A stretch of 64,000 nt of DNA from Mycobacterium sp. SMC-8 (GTDB lineage Bacteria > Actinomycetota > Actinomycetes > Mycobacteriales > Mycobacteriaceae). The stretch is taken from positions 1,302,001 through 1,366,000 of the forward strand of contig NZ_CP079865.1 in the NCBI RefSeq assembly GCF_025263565.1, written 5' to 3'. The position numbers and the translations under genes were made by a program. Shown here piece by piece: positions 7,005-41,090 of this stretch; position 1 is the stretch's first letter; every line of letters begins with the position of its first letter. Below the pieces are notes generated by a model. The model was not told where the DNA came from. It did not search any database and was given only the letters and a program-made list of their open reading frames with translations.

Positions 7005-7924
7005 CAGGGGCGACCGGCAGAGAACTGGTCGTCCTCGGCACCGCCAGCCAGGTCCCCACCCGGCATCGCCACCACAACGGATACCTGCTGCGCTGGGACG
7101 ACGAGGGGCTGCTCTTCGATCCCGGTGAGGGAACCCAGCGGCAGATGCTGCTCGCCGGTGTGCCGGTCTCGGCCGTGACCCGGCTGTGCCTGACCCATTT
7201 TCACGGCGACCACTGCCTCGGGGTGCCGGGCGTCATCCAGCGGCTGTCGCTGGACGGGGTCACGCGGCCCGTGGAGGCCACCTACCCCGCCTCGGGGCGC
7301 GAGTACTTCGCGCGGCTGCGGCAAGCCAGCGCCTTCCACGACGTCACCGACATCCGGGAAAACCCGGTGTCGACCGACGGCGTGATCGCCGCCGGGCCGT
7401 TCGGCCGCCTGGAGGCCCGCCGGCTGGACCACCCCGTGGAGGCCATCGGCTACCGACTCGTCGAGGACGACCGGCCGCAGTTCCGGCGGGAGCTGTTGGA
7501 GCACTTCGGCATCACCGGACCGGCCGTCGGGGAGCTGCGGCGCGCCGGTGTCCTCGAGACCGGCGCGGGGTCGGTGCGACTGGCCGATGTCACCCGGCTC
7601 CGGCGCGGACAGCGCTTCGCCTTCGTGATGGGCACCCGGCTGTGTGACGCGGTCTACGCGCTCGCCGACGGCGCTGACCTCCTCGTCATCGAAGCGACCT
7701 TCCTGGAGCGCGACGCCGACCTGGCCGCCCGCCACGGCCACCTCACCGTCAGGCAAGCCGCGGGGGTGGCCGCCGACTGCGGCGTGCGGCGTCTGGTGCT
7801 CACCCATTTTTCGCAGCGCTACCCCGATACCGACGAGCACCGGCACGAGGCACGGGAGGTGTTCGACGGCGATCTCGTCATCGCCGAGGAACTGACCCGG
7901 ATTGAGGTGCCCCGGCGCGGGTAG
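7001..7924 (+). CDS. rnz: Ribonuclease Z (MBL fold)
   Basis: A 307-residue metallo-beta-lactamase-fold nuclease that would process the 3' ends of tRNA precursors. The zinc-binding motif is [11 protein letters not shown] (His66, His68, Asp70, His71). Further ligands are in the [27 protein letters not shown] and LTHFSQRY blocks, all typical of RNase Z. The length equals that of classical bacterial RNase Z. The GTG start at 7001 overlaps the previous stop (GTGA). Confidence 0.85.
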
Positions 7925-7984
7925 CCGTGAGGACGACCCGGACGTGCCCACCGGCTGAACACCCCGACCGACGATTCGGCGGCA

Positions 7985-8011
7985 CAAATATCGCTGTGCT
8001 ATGCATATTTG
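7985..8011. promoter_or_regulatory. AT-rich inverted repeat at the MFS gene start
   Basis: CAAATAT and ATATTTG form a perfect 7-bp inverted repeat with a 13-base spacer, the outer flanks extending it imperfectly (GGCA / TGCC). It is strikingly AT-rich for this genome and overlaps the proposed start of the MFS gene. It could be an operator or part of an extended promoter; there is no independent evidence of binding. Confidence 0.35.
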
Positions 8012-9301
8012 GTGCCCACCCGCCATGACCAGCGCCGGTGTGCGCCGGCGGCAGGTCGGCGCCCCGATCTGACCACCCGGCTGCCCGCACGCAACGCGCT
8101 CGGGTTGATGTTCGACCCCGTCTTCGGCGCGCTGTTCTGGGGCAAGATGTTCGCCGTCGTGGCGGTGTGGACGCACGGCATCGTCGCCGCCATCGTGATG
8201 TACGACGCCACGCGATCGGCGCTGATGGTGGGCATGGTCGGCGTGGTGCAGTTCGCACCGCAACTGGTCCTGAGCCCGACGAGCGGTAAGTGGGCCGACA
8301 CCGGGAACCCGGCGCGTCAGATCCTGCTCGGCCGCGTGCTCTGCATGGCCGGTTCCGGTTCCGTCGCGGCGTGGATGTTCATCCAGCCCGAGCTGACGGG
8401 GATGGGCGCGGCTCTTCCCGTGCTGGTCGGGACCACGCTGGTCGGCTTCGGGTTCGTCGTCGGCGGGCCGGCGATGCAGTCGATCGTGCCGACGCTCATC
8501 CGGGACGGCGAGCTGTCGACCGCGATGGCGCTCAACAGCATGCCGATGACGATCGGACGGATCATCGGCCCGGCGGCCGGCGCTTACCTCGCCGCGCACA
8601 TCGGACCGGCGACGGCGTTCGCGGTCAGCACGGTGCTGCACTTGGTGTTCGCGCTGTTCCTGCTCGCCGTGCGTTTCCCGGCCCCGCCACAGCGGCGCTC
8701 GGGCACCGACTACCGCGTACGGGTCGCCGTGCGCTACGTGTTCGGCGACCGCCCGCTGCTGCTGGCCCTGCTCGCGGTCACGACCGTCGGCATCGTGTCC
8801 GACCCGTCCATCACGTTGACCCCGTCGATCACCGACGCGCTCGGCGGCGATGCCTCGATGGTGGGGACGTTGTCGGCGGTGTTCGGGGTCGGCGCCGCGG
8901 TCGGGATGATCGCGCTGGCGCTGCTGCGCGGCCGTATCGCCTCGGCGACGGTGTCGTCGATCGGGATGGCCACCCTGGGTCTCGGCAGTGCGGTCCTGGC
9001 GGCCGCCGTGCACCCCTGGTTGGCGTTCGTCGGCTTCGTGATCTCCGGTTTCGGGTTCGGCTGCGCGTTGACCGGGCTGGGCACCGTCGTACAGGAACGC
9101 GCGCCCGAGGAGTTACGCGGGCGGATCATGGCGCTGTGGCTGGTCGGCTTCCTCGGCTCGCGCCCGATCGCCGCGGCGGTGCTCGGCGGCACCGCCGACG
9201 CGCTGAACGTGTACGCGGCATTCGGTGTCGCGGCGGCCCTGGCCGTGGTGGTGACGGTGCTGTGCCGGCCGGCGAAACTGGTCGGACCACTCCCTAGTTA
9301 G
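8012..9301 (+). CDS. MFS transporter (MFS_3 / enterobactin-exporter-like)
   Basis: About 429 residues with roughly twelve hydrophobic segments, starting FGALFWGKMFAVVAVWTHGIVAA. Loop motifs such as GKWADTGNPARQILLGR and ERAPEELRGRIMALW fit the MFS_3 group of drug and siderophore exporters. The start is uncertain: TTG 8009 and GTG 8012 lack a clear ribosome-binding site, and the conserved part begins near codon 25 (TTRLPARNALGLMF). The last 8 bases overlap the convergent hydrolase gene. The substrate is unknown. Confidence 0.8.
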   Translation: MPTRHDQRRCAPAAGRRPDLTTRLPARNALGLMFDPVFGALFWGKMFAVVAVWTHGIVAAIVMYDATRSALMVGMVGVVQFAPQLVLSPTSGKWADTGNPARQILLGRVLCMAGSGSVAAWMFIQPELTGMGAALPVLVGTTLVGFGFVVGGPAMQSIVPTLIRDGELSTAMALNSMPMTIGRIIGPAAGAYLAAHIGPATAFAVSTVLHLVFALFLLAVRFPAPPQRRSGTDYRVRVAVRYVFGDRPLLLALLAVTTVGIVSDPSITLTPSITDALGGDASMVGTLSAVFGVGAAVGMIALALLRGRIASATVSSIGMATLGLGSAVLAAAVHPWLAFVGFVISGFGFGCALTGLGTVVQERAPEELRGRIMALWLVGFLGSRPIAAAVLGGTADALNVYAAFGVAAALAVVVTVLCRPAKLVGPLPS

Positions 9302-10448
9302 GGCGGCGACGTCCGGTCAACTCCGCGATGGTGTTGATCTCGCTGTCCCGGTACGGGGTGCCGTCGGTTTTCAGCAGATCGTGAAACCACACTCCGGGCG
9401 GTCCGGGAACCGGCCGGTCCCACGAGTCCCACGGCAGGAAGGTCTGGGTCTTGCCCGCGACGAAGCCCCAAGTGAACGCGCCGACATTGCGTCGCTTGGT
9501 GATCGGCAGGATCGACTCCACGGTGCTGTTCAGCGTGCGGGCCATGTACTCGGTGCACAACATCGGGCGCCCGATCGGCGTCAGTTCCTCCAGCCGCGCC
9601 TCGAAGCCCTTGGGGTCGGCATAGCTGTGGAAGGTGATCACGTCGGACAGGTCGAGCTGGATCCGGTTGATCTCGTTGCGGCGCGCCGGATCTCCCCATT
9701 CGCCGTCCCAGACTCCGCTGGTCAGCGGTTGGATCGGGTCGACCGAGCGGGCCCAACCGAAGACCTGCGGCAGCAGTTCGGCCACCCGCTCCACCTTGTC
9801 CCTGCGTTCGACGTCCTTGTACGCGTCAGCGGGGTTGTCGGGCTCGTTCCACAGGTCCCAGCCCAGGACCCGCCGGTCGTGCCGGAACTGGCTGAGCACC
9901 CCCACCACGTAGTCCCTCATGACGCGGTGGTGCCGCGGATCGCTGAGGTGGTCGGCGCCGGGACTCTGCACCCAGCCCGAGTTGTGCACGCCCGGTGTCG
10001 GGTTGCGCTGCTGCCCCAGCCGCGGGTGCGGATCCCAGCAGGAGTCGAACAGCACGAACAACGGCTTGATGCCGTGGTGAGCCGCGATGTCGACGAACCG
10101 GGCCAGCCGCCGCTGGAACCCGACCCGGTCCTGCACCCACAGCAGGTCGTGCAGGAATACGCGAACGGTGTTGAGCCCGATCAGCTTTGCCATGCGCAGC
10201 TCGGTGTCGATGCGCCGCGGATCGAAGGTGCCCGGCTGGAACATCTCGAGCTGATTGATCGCGTTGGCCGGGATGAAGTTCGCGCCGACGAGCCAGCCCT
10301 GCGCCCGGTGCCACCGGTGTGCCCGGTCGGGCGACCACCGCGCCAGCTCCGCCGACGCGCGGGGCACGCTCGTCAGCACGGCGCCCGCGGCCAGTACGGC
10401 GGGCAATTTGAGCGCAGAGCGACGATCCAGCAGGGCTTCAGACGGCAA
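9294..10448 (-). CDS. Tat-exported GH5-like glycoside hydrolase (cellulase/mannanase family)
   Basis: A 384-residue protein. The N-terminus (LLDRRSALKLPAVLAAGAVL) is a twin-arginine signal with R9-R10. The mature part is a (beta/alpha)8 barrel with the acid/base Glu in LGWDLWNEPDNP and a candidate nucleophile Glu in MLCTEYMAR. ANFIPANAINQLEMFQPGTFD is typical of GH5-related 1,4-beta-mannosidase/cellulase-like proteins. Substrate specificity cannot be read from the sequence. It probably acts in the periplasm or outside the cell. It overlaps the end of the MFS gene by 8 bases. Confidence 0.82.
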   Translation of the reverse strand: MPSEALLDRRSALKLPAVLAAGAVLTSVPRASAELARWSPDRAHRWHRAQGWLVGANFIPANAINQLEMFQPGTFDPRRIDTELRMAKLIGLNTVRVFLHDLLWVQDRVGFQRRLARFVDIAAHHGIKPLFVLFDSCWDPHPRLGQQRNPTPGVHNSGWVQSPGADHLSDPRHHRVMRDYVVGVLSQFRHDRRVLGWDLWNEPDNPADAYKDVERRDKVERVAELLPQVFGWARSVDPIQPLTSGVWDGEWGDPARRNEINRIQLDLSDVITFHSYADPKGFEARLEELTPIGRPMLCTEYMARTLNSTVESILPITKRRNVGAFTWGFVAGKTQTFLPWDSWDRPVPGPPGVWFHDLLKTDGTPYRDSEINTIAELTGRRRPN

Positions 10449-10757: not shown

Positions 10758-12383
10758 ATGGGGGAGAGCACACCCCTGGACATCGCCTCGGAGTACGACG
10801 CAGCCTGGGGATCGGTTCCCCACCCGGTGCTCGTGGTCGACGGGGCCGGAATGGTCCGGACCTCGAGTGAATCCGCGCGAACCGTGTTGCCGGAGCTCAT
10901 CTCCGGCGGTGCGCTCGAAGACGTGGCACCGGCATGGCTGGCAGGCGCGCATCAGCGCCTGGCCAAAGTGTCCGGAAGTGTGGACGGGCGGGAGTTCGAG
11001 GCGCACCCGACGACGTTGCCCGGTGGCGAGGTCGCCTGGTGGCTGGTCGAAGATTCCGCCCGCTCGGCCCGGGAAGCACGGCAGGCGCTGACGGTGGAAC
11101 GGGAACGCGCGGCGTTCCTCGACGATGCGTCCGCGGTGCTGATGGCCTCGCTGAACATCGACCGTTGCATGGAGGCGACCGTCCAGATGGCCGCACGCCA
11201 CCTCGCCGACGCCGCTGTCCTCGTCGCCCCCAGCTCCGGTGGGCGCGTCCCCGTCGTGTGCAGCGGGCCCGACGGCGCCGCGGCGCACCGCGGCGTCGAG
11301 GCCGACCCCGCCGACGTGGCCGGGCTCTCCGAAGCCCTGCGCGGATTCCCACCGGTCCCGTCGCGGTGGATCGACCCCACATCCGTTCCCGATTGGCTTG
11401 TGCCCGAAGACTTTCCAGGTCCGGTCGGCTCCGTGGTGATCACCCCGCTGCCCGGTCACGGCGTCCCGGCCGGGGCGCTGGTCCTGTTGCGGCGCTCCTC
11501 GCAGACGGCGTTCAGTGAGGGCGAAGAGGTGTTCGCCCGGCTGTTCGCGGCCCGCGCCGGTGCGGCGCTGTCGGCGGCTCGGCTCTACGCCGAGCAGTCC
11601 GCGATCACGCGCACCCTCATGGAGGAGCTGCTGCCGCCCCGCCTGCACCGCCTTGAGGGCGTCGAGCTCGCCGGCGGCTACCGCGCTTCGGAAGACCATG
11701 AGGCCATCGGCGGTGACTTCTACGACGTGCACGTCGGGGCCACGCCCGAGGACGAGACGCTGGTGGTCCTCGGCGACGTCTGCGGCAAGGGACTCGAAGC
11801 CGCCGTGCTGACCGGCAAGATCCGCAACACGCTGATGGCGCTGGCACCGCTGGCCGAAGACCACGCCGGGGTACTCAAGCTGCTCAACAGTGCGTTGCTC
11901 TCGGTGGAGAGCACCCGGTTCGTCACGCTGGTGATGGCCTCGGTGTCGCGCCGCGACGGGCAGGTGGTGCTGCGTCTGACCTGTGCCGGACATCTGGCCC
12001 CGCTGATCGTGCGCACCGACGGCCGTGTGGAGGAGGCCGACACCCGCGGCACGCTGGTCGGCGTGATGCCGCAGATCAAGGCCCGCACCGTGGAAACCAC
12101 CCTGGCCCCCGGCGAGACCTGCCTGCTCTACACCGACGGCGTCACCGAGGCCCGCGGCGGACCGCTCGGCACCGACATGTTCGGCGAGGAGCGGTTGTCC
12201 ACAGTGCTGGCGGAATGCGCGGGTCTGCCCGCCGAGGCCGTCGTCGAGCGCGTCATGATGCTCACCAGCCAGTGGGTGAGTCACCGCGCCCACGACGACA
12301 TCGCCGTGGTCGCCATCACCGCGCCGCGCCGCACGCATCTGAGCGCGGTCGACGGTCACACCGCTGGGAGGTACACCGCGTGA
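10758..12383 (+). CDS. PAS-GAF-PP2C (SpoIIE/RsbU-type) serine phosphatase
   Basis: A 541-residue cytosolic signalling protein. Residues about 15-100 form a PAS-like domain (HPVLVVDGAGMVRTSS). Residues about 115-285 form a GAF-like domain preceded by a coiled linker (EARQALTVERERAAF). Residues about 305-525 form a PP2C/SpoIIE phosphatase with metal-binding Asp in IGGDFYDV, GDVCGKG, YTDGVTEA and HDDIAVVAI. Known RsbU-type enzymes dephosphorylate a STAS anti-anti-sigma factor and thereby release a sigma factor. Its TGA overlaps the GTG of the next gene, and a STAS gene is third in the operon, which fits. The input signal is unknown but may include the B12 protein. Confidence 0.9.
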   Translation: MGESTPLDIASEYDAAWGSVPHPVLVVDGAGMVRTSSESARTVLPELISGGALEDVAPAWLAGAHQRLAKVSGSVDGREFEAHPTTLPGGEVAWWLVEDSARSAREARQALTVERERAAFLDDASAVLMASLNIDRCMEATVQMAARHLADAAVLVAPSSGGRVPVVCSGPDGAAAHRGVEADPADVAGLSEALRGFPPVPSRWIDPTSVPDWLVPEDFPGPVGSVVITPLPGHGVPAGALVLLRRSSQTAFSEGEEVFARLFAARAGAALSAARLYAEQSAITRTLMEELLPPRLHRLEGVELAGGYRASEDHEAIGGDFYDVHVGATPEDETLVVLGDVCGKGLEAAVLTGKIRNTLMALAPLAEDHAGVLKLLNSALLSVESTRFVTLVMASVSRRDGQVVLRLTCAGHLAPLIVRTDGRVEEADTRGTLVGVMPQIKARTVETTLAPGETCLLYTDGVTEARGGPLGTDMFGEERLSTVLAECAGLPAEAVVERVMMLTSQWVSHRAHDDIAVVAITAPRRTHLSAVDGHTAGRYTA

Positions 12384-13447
12384 GCGACCGCACCTCTCGC
12401 GCCCGTGAACAACTCTGGGCTGCGGCGCTCGACGGTGACGAGTACACCGCGTCGTCGGTCGTGCTGGCCGCGGTCGACGACGGTATGACGGGCGAAGAGG
12501 TGCTGCTCGACGTCATCGCGCCGGTGCAGCGTCGGGTCGGCGCCGAATGGGCGGCCAACCGCATCACCGTCGCCCAGGAGCACGCCGCGACCGCGATCAA
12601 CGACCGCGCGATCGCCGCGCTGTCAAACCATCCGGCCTGCGCATCCAGCGGCGGCGCCGGCCGGGTGACAGTGGCCTGCGTGGACGGCGAATGGCACGCC
12701 CTGCCGGCGCGCCTGCTCGCCGAGGTGCTGAAGCTGCGCGGGTGGCACGTCGACTTCCTCGGCGCCCAGGTCCCCACCCCGCATCTGATCGCCCACCTGC
12801 ACCAGCACGGCCCCGATGCGGTCGCACTGTCCTGCATGATCCCGACCCGGCTGCCCACCGCGCACGCCGCGATCACCGCATGCCAGGCCGCCGGTGTGGC
12901 CGTGCTCGCCGGCGGCGCCGCGTTCGGCGCGGACGGGCGTTTCGCCCGCCGCCTCGGCGCCGACGCGTGGGCCGCGGACGCCCGCAGCGCGGCCGCCCTG
13001 CTCGGGGACGGCCTGCGCCCGGTCCCGGTCACCGCCACCCACCAACCCGTCGACGACCTGCCCCACCTGGTGGACCAGGAGTACACGATGGTCCGGGATA
13101 ACAGCGCGCAGTTGATCGCGACCACGGTCCGGGATCTGGAGGACCGCTTCCCGGCAATGCGCGACTACACCGAGGCGCAGCGCCAGCACACCCTCGAGGA
13201 CATCGCCCACATCGTCGAATTCCTCACCACCGCGCTGTACGTCGACGACGACGAACTGTTCGTCGGGTTCATCACCTGGACCGCCGACATCTTGACCGCC
13301 CGCGGCGTGCCGGCGGTTTCGCTGCTACCCGCTCTCGAATCACTCGCCGGGCACCTGCCCGAGTTCCCGCGTGCCCAGCGCCTGCTCAAAGCCGCGCACG
13401 CATCCGTCCATCACGTTCCCACCGACAACCCCTCACTCTCCGCATGA
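12380..13447 (+). CDS. B12-binding protein with CarH-type W-x9-EH photoreceptor signature
   Basis: A 355-residue soluble protein with no MerR DNA-binding domain. Residues about 1-90 form a helical cap domain like B12-binding_2, in which Trp57 and Glu67-His68 give W-x9-EH, the motif that in CarH/LitR photoreceptors caps the adenosyl group of AdoCbl. Residues about 95-210 form a Rossmann-type B12-binding domain; GEWHALP supplies His106 as candidate lower axial ligand, followed by LRGWHVDFLGAQVP, the usual motif. Residues about 215-345 form an unassigned helical domain. GTGA overlap with the phosphatase and ATGA overlap with the STAS gene tie all three together. A light or cobalamin sensor feeding the phosphatase is inference. 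Confidence 0.85.
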   Translation: MSDRTSRAREQLWAAALDGDEYTASSVVLAAVDDGMTGEEVLLDVIAPVQRRVGAEWAANRITVAQEHAATAINDRAIAALSNHPACASSGGAGRVTVACVDGEWHALPARLLAEVLKLRGWHVDFLGAQVPTPHLIAHLHQHGPDAVALSCMIPTRLPTAHAAITACQAAGVAVLAGGAAFGADGRFARRLGADAWAADARSAAALLGDGLRPVPVTATHQPVDDLPHLVDQEYTMVRDNSAQLIATTVRDLEDRFPAMRDYTEAQRQHTLEDIAHIVEFLTTALYVDDDELFVGFITWTADILTARGVPAVSLLPALESLAGHLPEFPRAQRLLKAAHASVHHVPTDNPSLSA

Positions 13448-13794
13448 AACTCACCCTCACCGTCCACACCGCCGACCAGGCGGCCCGCGTCCGCATCGCC
13501 GGAGACCTCGACTACGGCTCCACCCCGCTGCTGCTGGACACGGTTTCCGAGGTGCTGCGCCGGGCCTCCGGGCTCACCGATCTCCACTTGGACTTCACCG
13601 ATCTGGCCTTCTGCGATTCGGCCGGACTGTCCTCCCTGGTGCTGATCTACAGGCGCACCGCCACCGCCGGCCTGCACCTGCACCTCGACCAGCGGCCGGC
13701 GCAGCTCGAGCGGATCCTCGACATCACCGGTCTGCTCAACTTCCTCACCACCCCTGCGGCGCAACAGGAGCCCGGCGAGTCCGACATCGGCTGA
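13444..13794 (+). CDS. STAS-domain anti-anti-sigma factor
   Basis: A 116-residue single STAS domain (RsbV/SpoIIAA-like). The loop before helix 2 reads LAFCDSAGLSSLV; Ser59 is the expected phosphorylation site. The unphosphorylated form would bind an anti-sigma kinase and free a sigma factor. The start ATG overlaps the preceding TGA. No anti-sigma kinase (HATPase_c) gene lies nearby, so the partner must be encoded elsewhere. Confidence 0.88.
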   Translation: MKLTLTVHTADQAARVRIAGDLDYGSTPLLLDTVSEVLRRASGLTDLHLDFTDLAFCDSAGLSSLVLIYRRTATAGLHLHLDQRPAQLERILDITGLLNFLTTPAAQQEPGESDIG

Positions 13795-31661: not shown

Positions 31662-31970
31662 TCAATGGTGGTCGTCGGAGACCGCGTGGTCACCGTCGTC
31701 GGTAGCAAGGGGTTTGGTGAGCAGCTCTCGCTGTTGCACAACGTCTTCCAGCGCGGTGACCCAGTGGTCGTAGTACTGCCATTCGCCGCGGTCGGTCTCC
31801 GCGGACGCCTCCCACGCACCGATCGTGTCGATCAGGCTCTGCTGGAAGTCACTCCACGGGTAGTGCCCGAACTCCGACAGCGCCAGGGCCAGCCCGAAGG
31901 CTCGGCGCTGCCAGTCGTGGTCGAAGGACGGGGCAGCCTGATCGGTGGTGCAGGTGCTGTGCAGTTTCAT
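31662..31970 (-). CDS. Nitrile hydratase accessory/activator protein (P14K type)
   Basis: A 102-residue protein related to the N-terminal part of nitrile hydratase beta subunits (DWQRRAFGLALALSEFGHYPWSDFQQSLIDTIGAWE). Such activators form a complex with the alpha subunit and exchange it to load cobalt and oxidise the metal-site cysteines. ATGA overlap with the alpha gene. The His/Asp-rich end (DDGDHAVSDDHH) might bind metal. Confidence 0.83.
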   Translation of the reverse strand: MKLHSTCTTDQAAPSFDHDWQRRAFGLALALSEFGHYPWSDFQQSLIDTIGAWEASAETDRGEWQYYDHWVTALEDVVQQRELLTKPLATDDGDHAVSDDHH

Positions 31971-32587
31971 ACCGGCTGCCCCGCGAGCGCCACGCCCATC
32001 ATCGACTCGGTGGTGACCAGCTCCATCAGTTCGTCATCCGTCAGATCTTCGGTGCGCGAGGGCCTTTCGGGGATGACGAACCACCGGGAATGACCGCTGG
32101 AGTCCCACACCTTGATCTCGGTGTCGTCCGGCAGAGCCACCCCGACCTCGGCGAGCACTGTGCGCGGTTCGCGCGCGGCACGGGCGCGGAACACCGGATC
32201 TTTGTACCAGTAGGGCGGCAGCCCCAGCACCGGCCACGGGAAGCACGAGCACAGCGTGCAGATCACCAGGTTGTGCACTCCCGGCCCGTTCGCCACGGCC
32301 TGCAGGTGTTCGCCTTCGGCGCCGGCCATCCCCTCGGGCAGATCGAGTTCGGCCAGTGCGGCCGGGGTGTCGATCACCACCCGCGCGGCGAAATCCGGAT
32401 CCGTCCACGCCTTCACGACGATCTTCTTTCCGTTCAGCGGTGTCATCTCGGATTCGAAGTAGGACAACACCTTCTCCACGGTCTGGCTGGTGATGACACC
32501 CTTCTCGATCAGCAGTCGCTCCAGCGCCGCGACGCGGTCGGCGCTGGACTTCTCCCGGTCGGCCGGGTAGGCGAACTGGTCGGTCAT
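31967..32587 (-). CDS. nthA: Nitrile hydratase alpha subunit, cobalt type
   Basis: A 206-residue alpha subunit. The metal site is VICTLCSCFPWPVLGLPPYWYK: Cys110, Cys113, Ser114 and Cys115, with Thr111 marking the cobalt type (iron types have Ser there). In the family two of the cysteines become sulfinic and sulfenic acids. It hydrates nitriles to amides as an alpha-beta heterodimer. ATGA overlaps link it to beta upstream and the activator downstream. ATG 32587. Confidence 0.92.
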   Translation of the reverse strand: MTDQFAYPADREKSSADRVAALERLLIEKGVITSQTVEKVLSYFESEMTPLNGKKIVVKAWTDPDFAARVVIDTPAALAELDLPEGMAGAEGEHLQAVANGPGVHNLVICTLCSCFPWPVLGLPPYWYKDPVFRARAAREPRTVLAEVGVALPDDTEIKVWDSSGHSRWFVIPERPSRTEDLTDDELMELVTTESMMGVALAGQPV

Positions 32588-33324
32588 TGAGAATCCTCCT
32601 CGACAGGTTGCAGGTATGCCTCGAAAAGTTCGGCGTACAGGGTGTTGGCGCCCGGCTCCGCACGCGGACCCCACAACTCGTCGGGGGCGAACTCGACGAT
32701 GTAGATCGGCATCGGATCACCGATACCGTCCCCGGTGTGGACGAAGTAGCCGTAGTCGCCCTCGAAGATTCGTCGCACAGTGCCGGTGCGGGACCGCAGA
32801 TAGCCGGGCAGCCGGGTGTGCGCCCCCGCAGGAACGTCGGTGATGCGCACCTGCTGACCGACGCCGAACCGCGGGTGCGCCACGTCGCGGCGCGGGCTGT
32901 CGCCGCGACGCAGGTAGTCGATCACCTGGTCGTCGATCGCCTGCCCCGACGGGTCTTCGGCCTGAGTGCCGGCTGCGCCGAGGGACTCGAGGAGCTCGTC
33001 CTCGGTCACGTAACCCCTGTCGATGAAGAACTGCGTGATGCCGCCGAGCCACTTCTCGTAGTAGCGGAACTTGAAGTAGTCGAACGGATTCATCGCTTCC
33101 GCACCGGTCCGCAGGTCGGCCCACGTCCATTCGTCGCGGAACGCGGTCGGCACGTCGGCGATCGGATACTCCGGCAATGCCGACCCCAGATGATTGCTCA
33201 AACCCATCATCGCGACGTGGATGCCGAAGATCCGCTTCTCCCAGTCCTCGACGAAAACCCGCTTCTCCAGATTCAGCGGTTGGGGCAGCCCTTCGAGACC
33301 CCCCAGATGATGCTGCAGTTTCAC
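32584..33324 (-). CDS. nthB: Nitrile hydratase beta subunit
   Basis: A 246-residue beta subunit (GLEGLPQPLNLEKRVFVEDWEKRIFGIHVAMMG, then HPRFGVGQQVRI and a C-terminal SH3-like barrel YIVEFAPDELWG). The GTG start at 33324 (VKLQHHLGGLEG) overlaps the preceding DUF1097 stop as GTGA; a long upstream in-frame extension is the antiparallel reading of that gene. The order beta-alpha is the usual one for cobalt enzymes. Confidence 0.9.
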   Translation of the reverse strand: MKLQHHLGGLEGLPQPLNLEKRVFVEDWEKRIFGIHVAMMGLSNHLGSALPEYPIADVPTAFRDEWTWADLRTGAEAMNPFDYFKFRYYEKWLGGITQFFIDRGYVTEDELLESLGAAGTQAEDPSGQAIDDQVIDYLRRGDSPRRDVAHPRFGVGQQVRITDVPAGAHTRLPGYLRSRTGTVRRIFEGDYGYFVHTGDGIGDPMPIYIVEFAPDELWGPRAEPGANTLYAELFEAYLQPVEEDSQ

Positions 33325-36171: not shown

Positions 36172-36807
36172 CTACCGCGCGGAGGCCAGCTCGTCGAACA
36201 CCGCCTGATTCAGCGCGAACGCGGTCTTGACCTCGGCCACCACCCGTCCGATGTCAGCGGCGTCCAGACTGAGGCCGTCCAGGCGCTCCCGGTAGTGATC
36301 CTTGTACGGCTTGACCCGGAAACCGAAGCGGTAGAACGCCAACCCGTTTCCGTCGAGACCGAACTCGCGGTCGAGGATTCGGGCCATCGCCTGCCCACCG
36401 GACAAATCGCCCAGATAGCGGGTGTAATGGTGGGCCACCAGCGCGCCACCCCAGGACTGGCCGCTGATCCTCTCCCGATAGCGTTGCACCGCAGCTGAAT
36501 CCACGGTTCGATCGGCGCCCGGCGCCCAGTGGTCCAGATCGGCGTCCAGGGCCGCCACCCGTTCCAGCGCGGGGTCGTACACCGCCGCGACCAACGGGTC
36601 GTCGCGATGTGCCCGCACAGCGTTCTCCAGTGCGTCGTAGATCCCGCGCAACCGCACCAAATACTGCGCATAGCCGTGCCGGCCGATCCCCCCGGACAGC
36701 AGGTCGCTCAGAAACGGCGACCGTTCGGCGGCGTCGTGCTCGGCCGCCGAACCTTCTCTGATCGCCGTCGACAGCGGCCGCAAGGTTTCAGCGGTGCTCG
36801 GCCGCAT
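36172..36807 (-). CDS. Biliverdin-producing heme oxygenase
   Basis: A 211-residue canonical heme oxygenase. Proximal His24 in AAEHDAAERSPF and the distal helix YLGDLSGGQAMARIL are both present, as is the C-terminal KTAFALNQAVFDEL. It opens heme to biliverdin, CO and iron in the cytosol. It is divergent from a TetR gene with an 84-bp spacer that holds a perfect operator-like palindrome. Confidence 0.9.
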   Translation of the reverse strand: MRPSTAETLRPLSTAIREGSAAEHDAAERSPFLSDLLSGGIGRHGYAQYLVRLRGIYDALENAVRAHRDDPLVAAVYDPALERVAALDADLDHWAPGADRTVDSAAVQRYRERISGQSWGGALVAHHYTRYLGDLSGGQAMARILDREFGLDGNGLAFYRFGFRVKPYKDHYRERLDGLSLDAADIGRVVAEVKTAFALNQAVFDELASAR

Positions 36808-38174: not shown

Positions 38175-39008
38175 TCATACGCTGATCACCGTCTTATGCG
38201 GCGCACCGCCAGGATCCCGGCTGATCAGTCCCTGTTCGGCGAAGGCATCCAGCCATCCGCCCATCGGCCAGGTACCCCATCGGCGGTGATAGATGTGTGC
38301 GTTGCGCACGATGTCGTCGAGGTGCCGCACCGGCGGGTTCTCGACCGGGTGGTGCTGGTGGAAAGCGTGCGCCCCGCCCACCCAGCACATCGGCACGCCC
38401 CTGGCTGCGGCACACTGCCCGAAGTCGGTGTCCTCACCACCGTAGCCCACGTACTCCTCGCAGAAGCCGCCGATCCGATCCCAGGTCCCTGCGCGTACGG
38501 CGAACGACAGCGACCAGAACAACGCGTAATCCGTTGTCGGAAGCACAGTTCCGTCGGGAGGTGACGGTCGGGCGGCGTGCGGTCGCCGGTGGTCGTCCAG
38601 TGTCGCCAGGTCATACCCGGCGGGTCCGGCCGGGGGCAGGTAGGTGACCGGACCGCACAGCAGCGCGTCCCTGTGCTCGGCCCGCCGAGCCGCTGCCCGG
38701 TAACGGCCGGTCAGCACGGCCGACGGGATGCAGTCGACGTCGAGGAAGATCAACAGTTCGGCTCCTCGGTCGAGGGCGCTTCGGGCGCCGGCGTTCCGCG
38801 CCCGCGCCAGCGGCAGCGGTGCCGCCGCAGGGCATGAGACGACATAGCCGGGGTGCCGTTCAGACTCCGCGACCGCGACCACGTCGGGGTCACCGAGCGC
38901 CACCACGACGTGGTCGTCGACGGGCTCGGTGCTGCACTGCAGACCCCGTATCTGGGCGCGCAGGTGCCGGTGCCGTCCGTGCACGATCGTGATCACCGCT
39001 GTCTTCAT
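38175..39008 (-). CDS. Family 2-type glycosyltransferase
   Basis: A 277-residue GT-A fold enzyme. The N-terminal KTAVITIVHGRHRHLRAQIRGL, the LIFLDVDCIPS (DxD-type) and the acceptor block GGFCEEYVGYGGEDTDFGQ (catalytic ED) resemble GT2/GT27-like transferases with a galactosyltransferase C-terminal domain. ATG 39008 overlaps the upstream TGA. It is last in a coupled glycosyltransferase run. Donor and acceptor unknown. Confidence 0.82.
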   Translation of the reverse strand: MKTAVITIVHGRHRHLRAQIRGLQCSTEPVDDHVVVALGDPDVVAVAESERHPGYVVSCPAAAPLPLARARNAGARSALDRGAELLIFLDVDCIPSAVLTGRYRAAARRAEHRDALLCGPVTYLPPAGPAGYDLATLDDHRRPHAARPSPPDGTVLPTTDYALFWSLSFAVRAGTWDRIGGFCEEYVGYGGEDTDFGQCAAARGVPMCWVGGAHAFHQHHPVENPPVRHLDDIVRNAHIYHRRWGTWPMGGWLDAFAEQGLISRDPGGAPHKTVISV

Positions 39009-40015
39009 CGCCGGGCCGCCTTTCCACGGCACCGGACCGCGGTCGACTCGATCGCCGCGGCGGCCCGCGCTGCCGCTCCGTGCACCTGCCATTGCCTCCA
39101 CCGCTGCGGGTCGGTGGTGCGTGCCCGTTGCAGCACGGCGGGCCAGTCGTCATCGGATGGCCACCGCGGTGCGGTGACAGCCAGACCGTATCGGCTCAGC
39201 ACCGACGCGGTCATGTGCTGCTCGTCGAAGGGCCGAGGCTGCGGGATGACGACCGCAGGTCGGCGGGCCGCCGCGATGTCGGCGACACTGTTCTGGCCGG
39301 CGTGACTGACCACGACGTCGGCGTCGCACAGGTAAGGCCACGGGTCGTCGGTCCAGATTCCGGACGCGCCACCGAGGGCGGTACAGGTGACGTCCTGCAC
39401 GCACGCCCGGGCGGCGCCGAACCCGTCGGCAGCGCCGCCGAGCAGCAGCACGTGCAGGTCGCGCCGGTCACTGGACCGTGTCGGCATCGGTCGGTTCTCG
39501 AAGCGGCTGACGCCACCGACGTAACTGGTCTTGTGCTCGTGCGGTTTCAGCCAGTGCGGGGTGTTCAGACCGGCGGGCCAGGCGGCCAGGATGTGGTCGG
39601 CCATCTGGTGCACGACGACATGCGGCGGATCGGTCCGGTCCCCGGGCAGTGCGACGATGACGGTCGGAATCCCCAACAGCCGCAGGAACATCGCCACCTC
39701 GACCGACACATCAACCACGCACAACTCGGGCCGCGCGTCAGCGACCCACTGTGCCAGCGCCTGCATGCGCGCCCCGAAGCCGCTGTCGTAGTAGGGCGCC
39801 CAGTGCAGCGCCCCGTGCGCCGTCGGTTCCGAGACGTGTTCGGCCACGTCGTCACGCGGAAGCCTGACGACCGAGGAGAACGGATGCTGTTGCGGCACAG
39901 TCGCCGAGGTCAATGCCGTCACGGGTCTGCGCAGATGCGAGGTGATGCTGACGGCCCGGGCGAGGTGGCCGTACCCGTGATGGTGGATGTAGTAGCCGAT
40001 CATCGGTGTCGTCAC
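39005..40015 (-). CDS. GT-B glycosyltransferase (MurG/UGT-like)
   Basis: A 336-residue protein. The N-terminal MIGYYIHHHGYGHLARAVSITSHL is a donor-side Rossmann start with the GHLARA motif; the C-terminal DADVVVSHAGQNSVADIAAARRPAVVIPQPRPFDEQ is the nucleotide-sugar site of GT28/GT1 enzymes. GTG 40015. In this sequence the upstream glycosyltransferase frame overlaps its start by 164 bases, which I interpret as a frameshift in that neighbour. Confidence 0.82.
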   Translation of the reverse strand: MTTPMIGYYIHHHGYGHLARAVSITSHLRRPVTALTSATVPQQHPFSSVVRLPRDDVAEHVSEPTAHGALHWAPYYDSGFGARMQALAQWVADARPELCVVDVSVEVAMFLRLLGIPTVIVALPGDRTDPPHVVVHQMADHILAAWPAGLNTPHWLKPHEHKTSYVGGVSRFENRPMPTRSSDRRDLHVLLLGGAADGFGAARACVQDVTCTALGGASGIWTDDPWPYLCDADVVVSHAGQNSVADIAAARRPAVVIPQPRPFDEQHMTASVLSRYGLAVTAPRWPSDDDWPAVLQRARTTDPQRWRQWQVHGAAARAAAAIESTAVRCRGKAARR

Positions 40016-41090
40016 CCCTGGGAGAGATCATCTGTCGATAGATTGCGAGGTGGGCCCGCACCATTGCCGCGGCAGAGCAGCGGCGCACGGCGTGCTCGTG
40101 CACCTGCCGTCGGGGCAGCCGCGCGGCCACCGGGATCGCCGCGGCCAGCGCCTCGATGTCGTCGGGAGCTACCAGGCAGCCCGACTGGGGTGTCACCAGT
40201 TCGGGGATCCCGCCCCGCGCGAAGGCGACGACCGGTGTGCCGCAGGACATCGCTTCGGCGACCACGAGCCCGTACGGTTCGTCCCACGTCGGAGTCACCA
40301 GTGCGACCGAGGCGGCTCCCACCAGGCGGGCCAGGTGCTGCTGGGTGAGATGGCCGGCATACCGGACGGCTTGACCCAGGTGCGGTTCGACGGCATCGGC
40401 GAAATACGCGGGATCGGAGATCGGCCCTGCCAGCATGAGATTGCCACCGGCAAGCCGGGCGGCATCGATAGCCAGGCGCGGAGCCTTTTCCGGCGTGATA
40501 CGCCCGAACCAGACGGCGTGCTGCCCGCCCGGTCCCAGCGGCCACCGCCGGGCGTCGATTCCGTTGGGCACCACAGTGAACGGGACGCCGGCGGGCGCCC
40601 AGGCAGTGGCGGTGTGTTCGGAGACGGCGGCGAAGCGGGTACCCCGGCCGCCGGTGGCCTGGACGGCCGACTCCAGCCACGGCGTCGGCGGGGTGTGCAC
40701 CGTGGTCAGCATCGGTGTGGACAGCGTGGGCGCCATCGCCACGGGCAGATAGTGCAGGCTGTGATTGTGGATGACGTCGAAGCTCTCGGCGTGTCTGCCT
40801 GCCAGGCCCAACATCAGCGCCAGGTAGGCATGGTGGTCGTCCATGAACTCCTCGGCGGGCATGGAGACGTCCGACCGTGCCGCATCGGAGAGTTTCAGCT
40901 CGCGCACCGTCAGCGACGCGCAGCCCGGGGCGGGGTCTGAGCCGGGGGCGGCGAACAGTGAGACCCGTTGTCCCTGGTCGGCCAGCGCTCGGGCCAGGTG
41001 CCAGACATGCGCTTCCAGGCCGCCGGCGAACGGCTGGCTGACGGGGTGGCGGGACGATGCGATCAGCGCGATCCGCAGCGGGCGCATCAT
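39852..41090 (-). CDS. GT4 glycosyltransferase, C-terminus probably frameshifted
   Basis: About 412 residues as read. The body is a normal GT4 enzyme: AGGLEAHVWHLARAL, VIHNHSLHYLP, WFGRITPEKAPRLAIDAA and TWDEPYGLVVAEAMSCGTPVVAFARGGIPEL (EX7E). After YRQMISPRG the frame reads about 50 residues of antiparallel-looking Arg/Pro sequence inside the next gene. One extra G in the GGGG complementary to 40015-40018 would give an immediate TGA overlapping the next GTG, the GTGA pattern seen elsewhere here. It is a close paralogue of the gene at 46134. ATGA overlap upstream. Confidence 0.8.
   Translation of the reverse strand: MMRPLRIALIASSRHPVSQPFAGGLEAHVWHLARALADQGQRVSLFAAPGSDPAPGCASLTVRELKLSDAARSDVSMPAEEFMDDHHAYLALMLGLAGRHAESFDVIHNHSLHYLPVAMAPTLSTPMLTTVHTPPTPWLESAVQATGGRGTRFAAVSEHTATAWAPAGVPFTVVPNGIDARRWPLGPGGQHAVWFGRITPEKAPRLAIDAARLAGGNLMLAGPISDPAYFADAVEPHLGQAVRYAGHLTQQHLARLVGAASVALVTPTWDEPYGLVVAEAMSCGTPVVAFARGGIPELVTPQSGCLVAPDDIEALAAAIPVAARLPRRQVHEHAVRRCSAAAMVRAHLAIYRQMISPRGDDTDDRLLHPPSRVRPPRPGRQHHLASAQTRDGIDLGDCAATASVLLGRQASA

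Follow-up and report, generated by a model that had tools for sequence, protein, structure and literature searches.

A conserved mycobacterial operon joining a predicted photocobilin to a SpoIIE-type phosphatase and a STAS protein, a probable light-input module for partner switching

The operon described here lies in a 64,000-nucleotide stretch of the Mycobacterium sp. SMC-8 genome (contig NZ_CP079865.1, positions 1,302,001 to 1,366,000 of the forward strand); this whole stretch is termed the window, and its coordinates are used throughout. The operon comprises three codirectional plus-strand genes, named A (phosphatase), B (B12-binding protein), and C (STAS protein):

10758..12383, + strand: gene A, PAS-GAF-coiled coil-PP2C (SpoIIE-type) phosphatase; ATG start, 541 amino acids
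12380..13447, + strand: gene B, predicted standalone photocobilin; GTG start, 355 amino acids, 4-base overlap with A
13444..13794, + strand: gene C, single-domain STAS anti-anti-sigma factor, as predicted; ATG start, 116 amino acids, 4-base overlap with B

The genes overlap at a GTGA junction (A-B) and an ATGA junction (B-C), and coordinates together with Pfam matches bear out an initial annotation, made from the sequence alone, of three overlap-coupled genes for a phosphatase, a B12 protein, and a STAS protein. That annotation had also assigned A a PAS-GAF-PP2C make-up. The SpoIIE/PP2C domain is matched by Pfam (E 3.7e-41), which gives a sub-threshold score for GAF (19.6 against a cut-off of 22.4 bits) and no match for PAS; support for the latter two domains comes from the predicted structure. 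In the AlphaFold2 (AF2) model of A (pLDDT 84), secondary structure and Foldseek comparison are consistent with a PAS domain (residues 24-98), a GAF domain (134-246), a long helix (254-290), and a PP2C domain (300-521), with Foldseek matches to RssB, SiaA, SpoIIE, and the RsbU domain of Rv1364c; Rv1364c and SiaA were also retrieved by sequence search.

Gene B carries Pfam domains PF02607 and PF02310, and by alignment its product is a full-length relative of the photocobilins, i.e., of a sensor family that is already known. In phmmer searches of the PDB, residues 6-337 aligned with the light/dark structures of SasPcob (8J2X/8J2W; E 4e-86), with AbDPcob next (8J2Y; E 9e-43) and CarH entries matching over the B12 core only (~1e-8 to 1e-10). 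Foldseek searches with the AF2 model of B likewise placed 8J2W, 8J2X, and 8J2Y at the top, over 337-349 columns; this model is of moderate quality (pLDDT 74, pTM 0.57; TM-score to 8J2W of 0.54-0.57, root-mean-square deviation 7.9), and its domain packing was therefore left uninterpreted. Sequence and model together point to the photocobilin architecture of a B12-binding four-helix bundle, a Rossmann domain, and a bilin-type globin. The last of these, which takes up the final third of the protein, had been overlooked in the initial annotation. The features of B that bear on its chromophores are as follows:

12548..12583, + strand: W-x9-EH adenosyl-pocket motif of B (W57 ... E67-H68), equivalent to SasPcob W61, E71, and H72
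12695..12697, + strand: H106 of B, predicted lower axial cobalt ligand, equivalent to SasPcob H108
13073..13408, + strand: predicted bilin-type globin domain of B (residues ~232-343), placed by the 8J2X alignment and containing D274 and W300

A scripted check on the aligned chain mapped SasPcob residues W61, E71, H72, H108, H137, D270, and W296 to W57, E67, H68, H106, H135, D274, and W300 of B, respectively, such that all seven mapped chromophore residues are present in the window protein. Conservation was followed in the best 80 of 441 relatives of B found in genome contigs (40 mycobacterial loci and 40 from Streptomyces and kin, Nocardia, Amycolatopsis, Saccharothrix, and Kutzneria), to which all residue and gene-order counts over 80 refer. 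W57, E67, H68, H106, D274, and W300 are each found in 80/80 loci and H135 in 79/80; E104, which forms an E/DxH motif with H106, is present in the window and in 80/80. The W57-x9-E67-H68 signature and His106 pointed out initially are thus present throughout, with no loss of any of the four in 80 loci of shared gene order. B accordingly contains the adenosylcobalamin (AdoCbl) motifs of photocobilins (Trp, Glu-His, and E/DxH) as well as the Asp and Trp of their biliverdin pocket. It is highly probable that B is photoactive and likely that it binds a bilin. At position 58, beside the motif Trp, the window protein and 79/80 loci have Ala, and 1/80 has Val; CarH instead has a His here (His132), the residue responsible for bis-His ligation in the light state of that protein. 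With Ala in place of His, a CarH-type switch would not be expected in B.

In A, residues D320, D340, D460, D513, and D514, presumably the metal-site residues, are invariant in 80/80 loci, and the PP2C fold with these retained Asp residues would make A a phosphatase of the PP2C/SpoIIE partner-switch type. The product of C matches STAS in Pfam (E 7.5e-12), exceeds the cut-off of the NCBIfam anti-sigma factor antagonist model TIGR00377 (ant_ant_sig), and has the anti-sigma-B factor antagonist 6M36 as its best PDB match. Its candidate site of phosphorylation is the following:

13618..13620, + strand: Ser59 of C, predicted to be phosphorylated; its aligned counterpart in SpoIIAA is the Ser that follows Asp

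In SpoIIAA, this Ser is the phosphorylated site. Among homologues of C, Asp58 is present in 73/73 and Ser59 in 71/73, consistent with a single STAS domain bearing a Ser of the phosphorylatable type.

Gene A lies upstream of B in 80/80 loci, and C lies downstream in 73/80, such that the gene order proposed at the outset for comparison across actinobacterial genomes is indeed conserved. The A-B overlap takes the form NTGA in 78/80 loci, and the B-C overlap is ATGA in 69 of the 73 having C. Among the seven loci lacking a downstream C, four (L041, L052, L055, and L073) have a STAS gene beyond A, the nearer of these being on the opposite strand in L052, and L040, L048, and L075 are without a STAS gene within the fetched stretch. 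The phosphatase is thus a fixed partner of B, and the STAS protein a usual one. In L023, gene A (about 7314-8980) is split over two reading frames, as if broken.

The nearest named homologues of window B are mycobacterial. A tree computed from 45 proteins groups the window-like (type I) proteins, of mycobacterial, Streptomyces-type, Nocardia, Amycolatopsis, Kutzneria, and other Saccharothrix origin, in a separate clade (support 1.000), with SasPcob falling outside. In a sample of 198 genomes from the genus of G001 (E <= 0.001), B was matched in 68 genomes, which sort by score into 41 with type I (three of them partial or split), 32 with type II, 8 of these with both, and 3 more with short or weak matches only. 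Type I B is in two pieces in G073 (G073:C45) and G147 (G147:C2), as if broken, and G200 has merely a short end piece.

Type II is a second, paralogous mycobacterial photocobilin, for which loci were fetched from 20 of the 32 genomes (L141-L160). An A-type phosphatase stands immediately upstream in 20/20 of these and a STAS gene inside the fetched stretch in 10/20. The W, E, H, and H residues of the adenosyl pocket and axial site are kept in 20/20. At the D274 position, Ala, Val, Thr, or Ile occurs, with no Asp in 20/20 aligned loci, and an Asp or Glu stands one residue before it, such that an alignment shift is possible; the H135 position is Arg. We read type II proteins as putative AdoCbl sensors with an altered or lost bilin site. 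In the wider phylum, B was matched in 85/296 genomes, with 13/85 matches spanning most of the globin (query start <50, end >320) and the others covering mainly the B12 part; one locus (L180, genome G402) displays the A-B-C order of the window.

Taken together, the operon is real and conserved, and it very probably constitutes a photoreceptor module of the photocobilin family, a light-sensing role for it being very likely. Homology, residues, operon conservation, and a nearby heme oxygenase gene are our own results; for the photochemistry, and for the effect on a separate enzyme, the evidence comes from relatives described in the literature. We consider it probable that, as far as C, the operon feeds a light signal into a partner switch. 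In the dark, B would hold AdoCbl, with H106 below the cobalt and W57, E67, and H68 around the adenosyl group, and would form a head-to-tail dimer; biliverdin supplied via the heme oxygenase would occupy the globin and serve as an antenna for red light. The Co-C bond would be cleaved by green light directly, or by red light via biliverdin, upon which the adenosyl group would depart, the E67/H68 helix would shift, and the dimer would open. The two states of B would then bind A differently and alter its PP2C activity; A would remove phosphate from Ser59 of C; and dephosphorylated C would bind an RsbW-type anti-sigma kinase encoded elsewhere, thereby freeing a sigma factor that, in mycobacteria, would most likely belong to the SigF family. 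The sign of the response (i.e., light switching the phosphatase on) is our guess. Of the successive links, the action of A on C is quite likely and the control of A by B likely; C may in turn lead to a sigma factor.

A bilin source would be required for the red-light branch of this scheme, for which the window contains a candidate:

36172..36807, - strand: canonical heme oxygenase, likely biliverdin source; 211 amino acids, 22 kb downstream of the operon, found by tblastn

The protein matches PF01126 (E 1.8e-49), has the biliverdin-producing heme oxygenase 1IW0 as its best PDB match, and is 73-74% identical to the enzymes of genomes G001 and G145. In 5 of the 14 type I genomes with such an enzyme, its gene shares a contig with B: in G001, G145, G033, and G104 it follows the operon at a distance of 42-55 kb and is encoded on the opposite strand, and in G197 it is far off. 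The 27/41 type I mycobacterial genomes without PF01126 raise an alternative, namely that in species lacking heme oxygenase B uses AdoCbl only, with the globin purely structural. AbDPcob functions with little biliverdin (PMC10979010), and in 20/20 type II loci the position that aligns with the bilin Asp is taken by another residue, both in keeping with such an arrangement. Against it, D274 and W300 are retained, along with the B12 residues, in all 31 of the 41 type I genomes for which a locus was examined, alike in the 17 without and the 14 with heme oxygenase, and a structural globin would have no need of them; we regard an AdoCbl-only B as rather unlikely. Heme oxygenase is depleted in genomes with type II (4/32 vs 62/166, p = 0.007, uncorrected for kinship). 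A close homologue of MhuD (Rv3592) is present in 196/198 genus genomes at E <= 1e-25, neither of the two exceptions (G009 and G057) being type I, and the PDB matches in this comparison include an entry named mycobilin-producing. Since MhuD homologues are near-universal and the MhuD product is mycobilin, as stated in excerpts of PMC8801480, mycobilin is a possible bilin ligand.

For the output of the photocobilin module, excerpts of two studies in M. smegmatis are pertinent: RsfR, a phosphatase of the PP2C class, exerts control over SigF by dephosphorylating RsfB, a STAS protein (PMC10950880), and the carotenoid made under light requires SigF (PMC4694148). Owing to this precedent and to the need for sigF in light-grown pigment, a SigF-family target is the one we favour, by analogy and tentatively, at somewhat short of an even chance. 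A kinase match was found in the stretch around the operon in 8/80 loci, all Streptomyces-type, mostly with weak scores (24-35 bits) apart from L069 (91) and L060 (286). HATPase_c_2 proteins are encoded in 17/17 genomes searched, with none in the window tied to the operon; in G359 and G380, a HATPase_c_2 gene precedes A on the same strand, at distances of ~1.1 and 2.8 kb, respectively. In the Streptomyces-type loci L189, L190, and L060, a protein with a C-terminal RsbW-type kinase domain is encoded upstream of the operon.

These data also bear on the possibility that B senses light and controls A as proposed, with C acting on a non-sigma partner. No sigma or anti-sigma gene was identified next to the operon, although no search aimed at sigma factors was made, and C is not downstream in 7/80 loci, as might be the case for a different output. 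However, the score of C above the ant_ant_sig cut-off, the retention of its Asp58 and Ser59 among homologues, and the occurrence of HATPase_c_2 proteins in every genome searched all count against this reading, and we regard a non-sigma output as unlikely.

Several observations weigh against the path from light via B, A, and C to a SigF-family factor. (i) The rest of the window yielded neither a further gene of A or C type nor, at E <= 1 and with two Streptomyces-type open reading frames as queries, a kinase of the RsbW type; a distant kinase could escape such a search. (ii) In 8 mycobacterial genomes, no HATPase_c_2 protein lies <=50 kb from the operon among the matches listed. (iii) A SigF-type -35/-10 pattern occurs in 0/41 sequences of 400 bases upstream of A, as judged by one strict pattern. 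(iv) Eight more distant photocobilin loci from other actinobacterial genomes (L181-L188) have no A-type phosphatase within the fetched stretch (at most 6 kb in each direction, and a shorter distance in L187). (v) Mycobacterial genomes carrying type I B do not encode heme oxygenase more often than the others (14/41 vs 52/157, p = 1), and the enzyme was rejected as a type I marker for want of any association. (vi) The named pigment regulator of M. marinum is the MarR-type CrtR, disruption of which results in constitutive pigment, according to excerpts of PMC6739363. (vii) Cobalamin, SpoIIE, STAS, and SigF all go unmentioned in the main text of an M. kansasii light-transcriptome study, the presence of the operon in that species being unchecked.

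Another alternative is that B reads the form or redox state of cobalamin (AdoCbl present or lost, oxygen, or heme breakdown products) rather than light, with the same output through A and C and with the in vitro photolysis of its relatives being incidental. The globin of RsbR, which served as the outgroup to bilin-type globins in a comparison excerpted from PMC10151467, is not known to sense light; in conjunction with the frequent lack of PF01126 in type I genomes, this lends the idea some substance. Nevertheless, the adenosyl-pocket residues are strict in 80/80 loci and in 20/20 of type II, and both SasPcob and AbDPcob, full-length matches of solved structure, are light-responsive, making a light-independent sensor improbable. 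Finally, the assignment of B to a methyltransferase system as its corrinoid component, to which JGI names, database labels such as MtbC1, and weak matches to MtgC/MtbC models would point, is hardly credible and was rejected, as the scores are far under family cut-offs (TIGR02370, 38 vs 215 bits), the cobalamin protein 1Y80 aligns with Phe and Val-Leu at the Trp and Glu-His of B, and B has a fixed phosphatase partner and an additional globin domain.

Other genes of the window were recorded in passing. Upstream of the operon, a 384-aa minus-strand gene (9294-10448) is without a Pfam or NCBIfam match, a secreted glycoside hydrolase being an impression only. A nitrile hydratase alpha chain is encoded at 31967-32593 on the minus strand (PF02979, E 2.4e-79), and a pair of adjoining glycosyltransferase-like genes at 39005-41090, also on the minus strand.

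Light-induced pigment has been used in mycobacterial classification since 1959, as stated in excerpts of PMC7755587, and in the open PMC literature on the topic, so far as excerpted, no photoreceptor for it is named. A conserved set of B12/bilin sensor, PP2C phosphatase, and STAS protein thus constitutes a concrete candidate. Photochromogens listed in part of PMC6739363 include M. vaccae, M. parafortuitum, M. phlei, M. kansasii, M. marinum, M. asiaticum, and M. simiae, the first three of which carry a type I B (L001, L003, and P0092, respectively). M. scrofulaceum, a scotochromogen in excerpts of PMC7755587, carries B as well (L016 and L026). One could go further and suppose that, in mycobacteria lacking canonical heme oxygenase, mycobilin from MhuD fills the bilin pocket of B as a light antenna, and that photochromogenic species rely on the module to sense light for their SigF-dependent pigment; this is a speculation to which we attach only a slim chance.

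Among known systems, the RsfS-RsfR-RsfB-SigF pathway of M. smegmatis resembles the proposed module in that a sensor-controlled PP2C phosphatase acts on a STAS protein; there, in the excerpts of PMC10950880, a histidine kinase responds to respiration, in the place that our scheme would give to a photocobilin. With CarH and LitR, B has in common the B12 core, the W-x9-EH motif, and the axial His; it differs in lacking a MerR DNA-binding domain, in having Ala for the bis-His residue, and in its extra globin. It also scores 59.7 against a cut-off of 400 with NF052513, used for the CarH/LitR comparison. The absence of any DNA-binding domain, by Pfam or NCBIfam, agrees with the initial annotation, which had nonetheless seen in B a CarH-type AdoCbl photoreceptor; of this, the grouping with experimentally shown AdoCbl photoreceptors stands, but the family is that of the photocobilins, with a second chromophore site and Ala at position 58. 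A CarH variant was rejected on account of the missing MerR domain and this Ala. SigB light input in Bacillus and Listeria employs other chromophores and a STAS-fused sensor, unlike a separate B12/bilin protein, and AerR is not known to contain a globin. In the former, light likewise enters a STAS/PP2C partner switch (PMC3019169, in excerpts), and AerR is likewise a B12-binding regulator working via a protein partner, in its case the repressor CrtJ (PMC5362033, in excerpts).

The closest comparison is with the photocobilins themselves, described in 2024 (PMC10979010) as binding both AdoCbl and biliverdin, with green light acting on AdoCbl directly and red light via biliverdin, and with a light state devoid of the bis-His ligation of CarH. 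SasPcob of Saccharothrix syringae and AbDPcob resemble B in full-length sequence and fold, in AdoCbl and biliverdin residues, and in standalone form; SasPcob is 47% identical to B and lies outside the clade of B (support 1.000). Free photocobilin, SasPcob included, modulates a diguanylate cyclase domain that is not fused to it, and a potential interaction of SasPcob with STAS, SpoIIE, and PP2C proteins was proposed by the same authors (PMC10979010), such that our principal idea is already in print for a relative of B. That work used the diguanylate cyclase domain of another protein, whereas the operon offers a standalone photocobilin with apparent natural partners. What differs here is that the neighbouring enzyme is a phosphatase and not a fused diguanylate cyclase, and that the gene order has been established across 80 loci.

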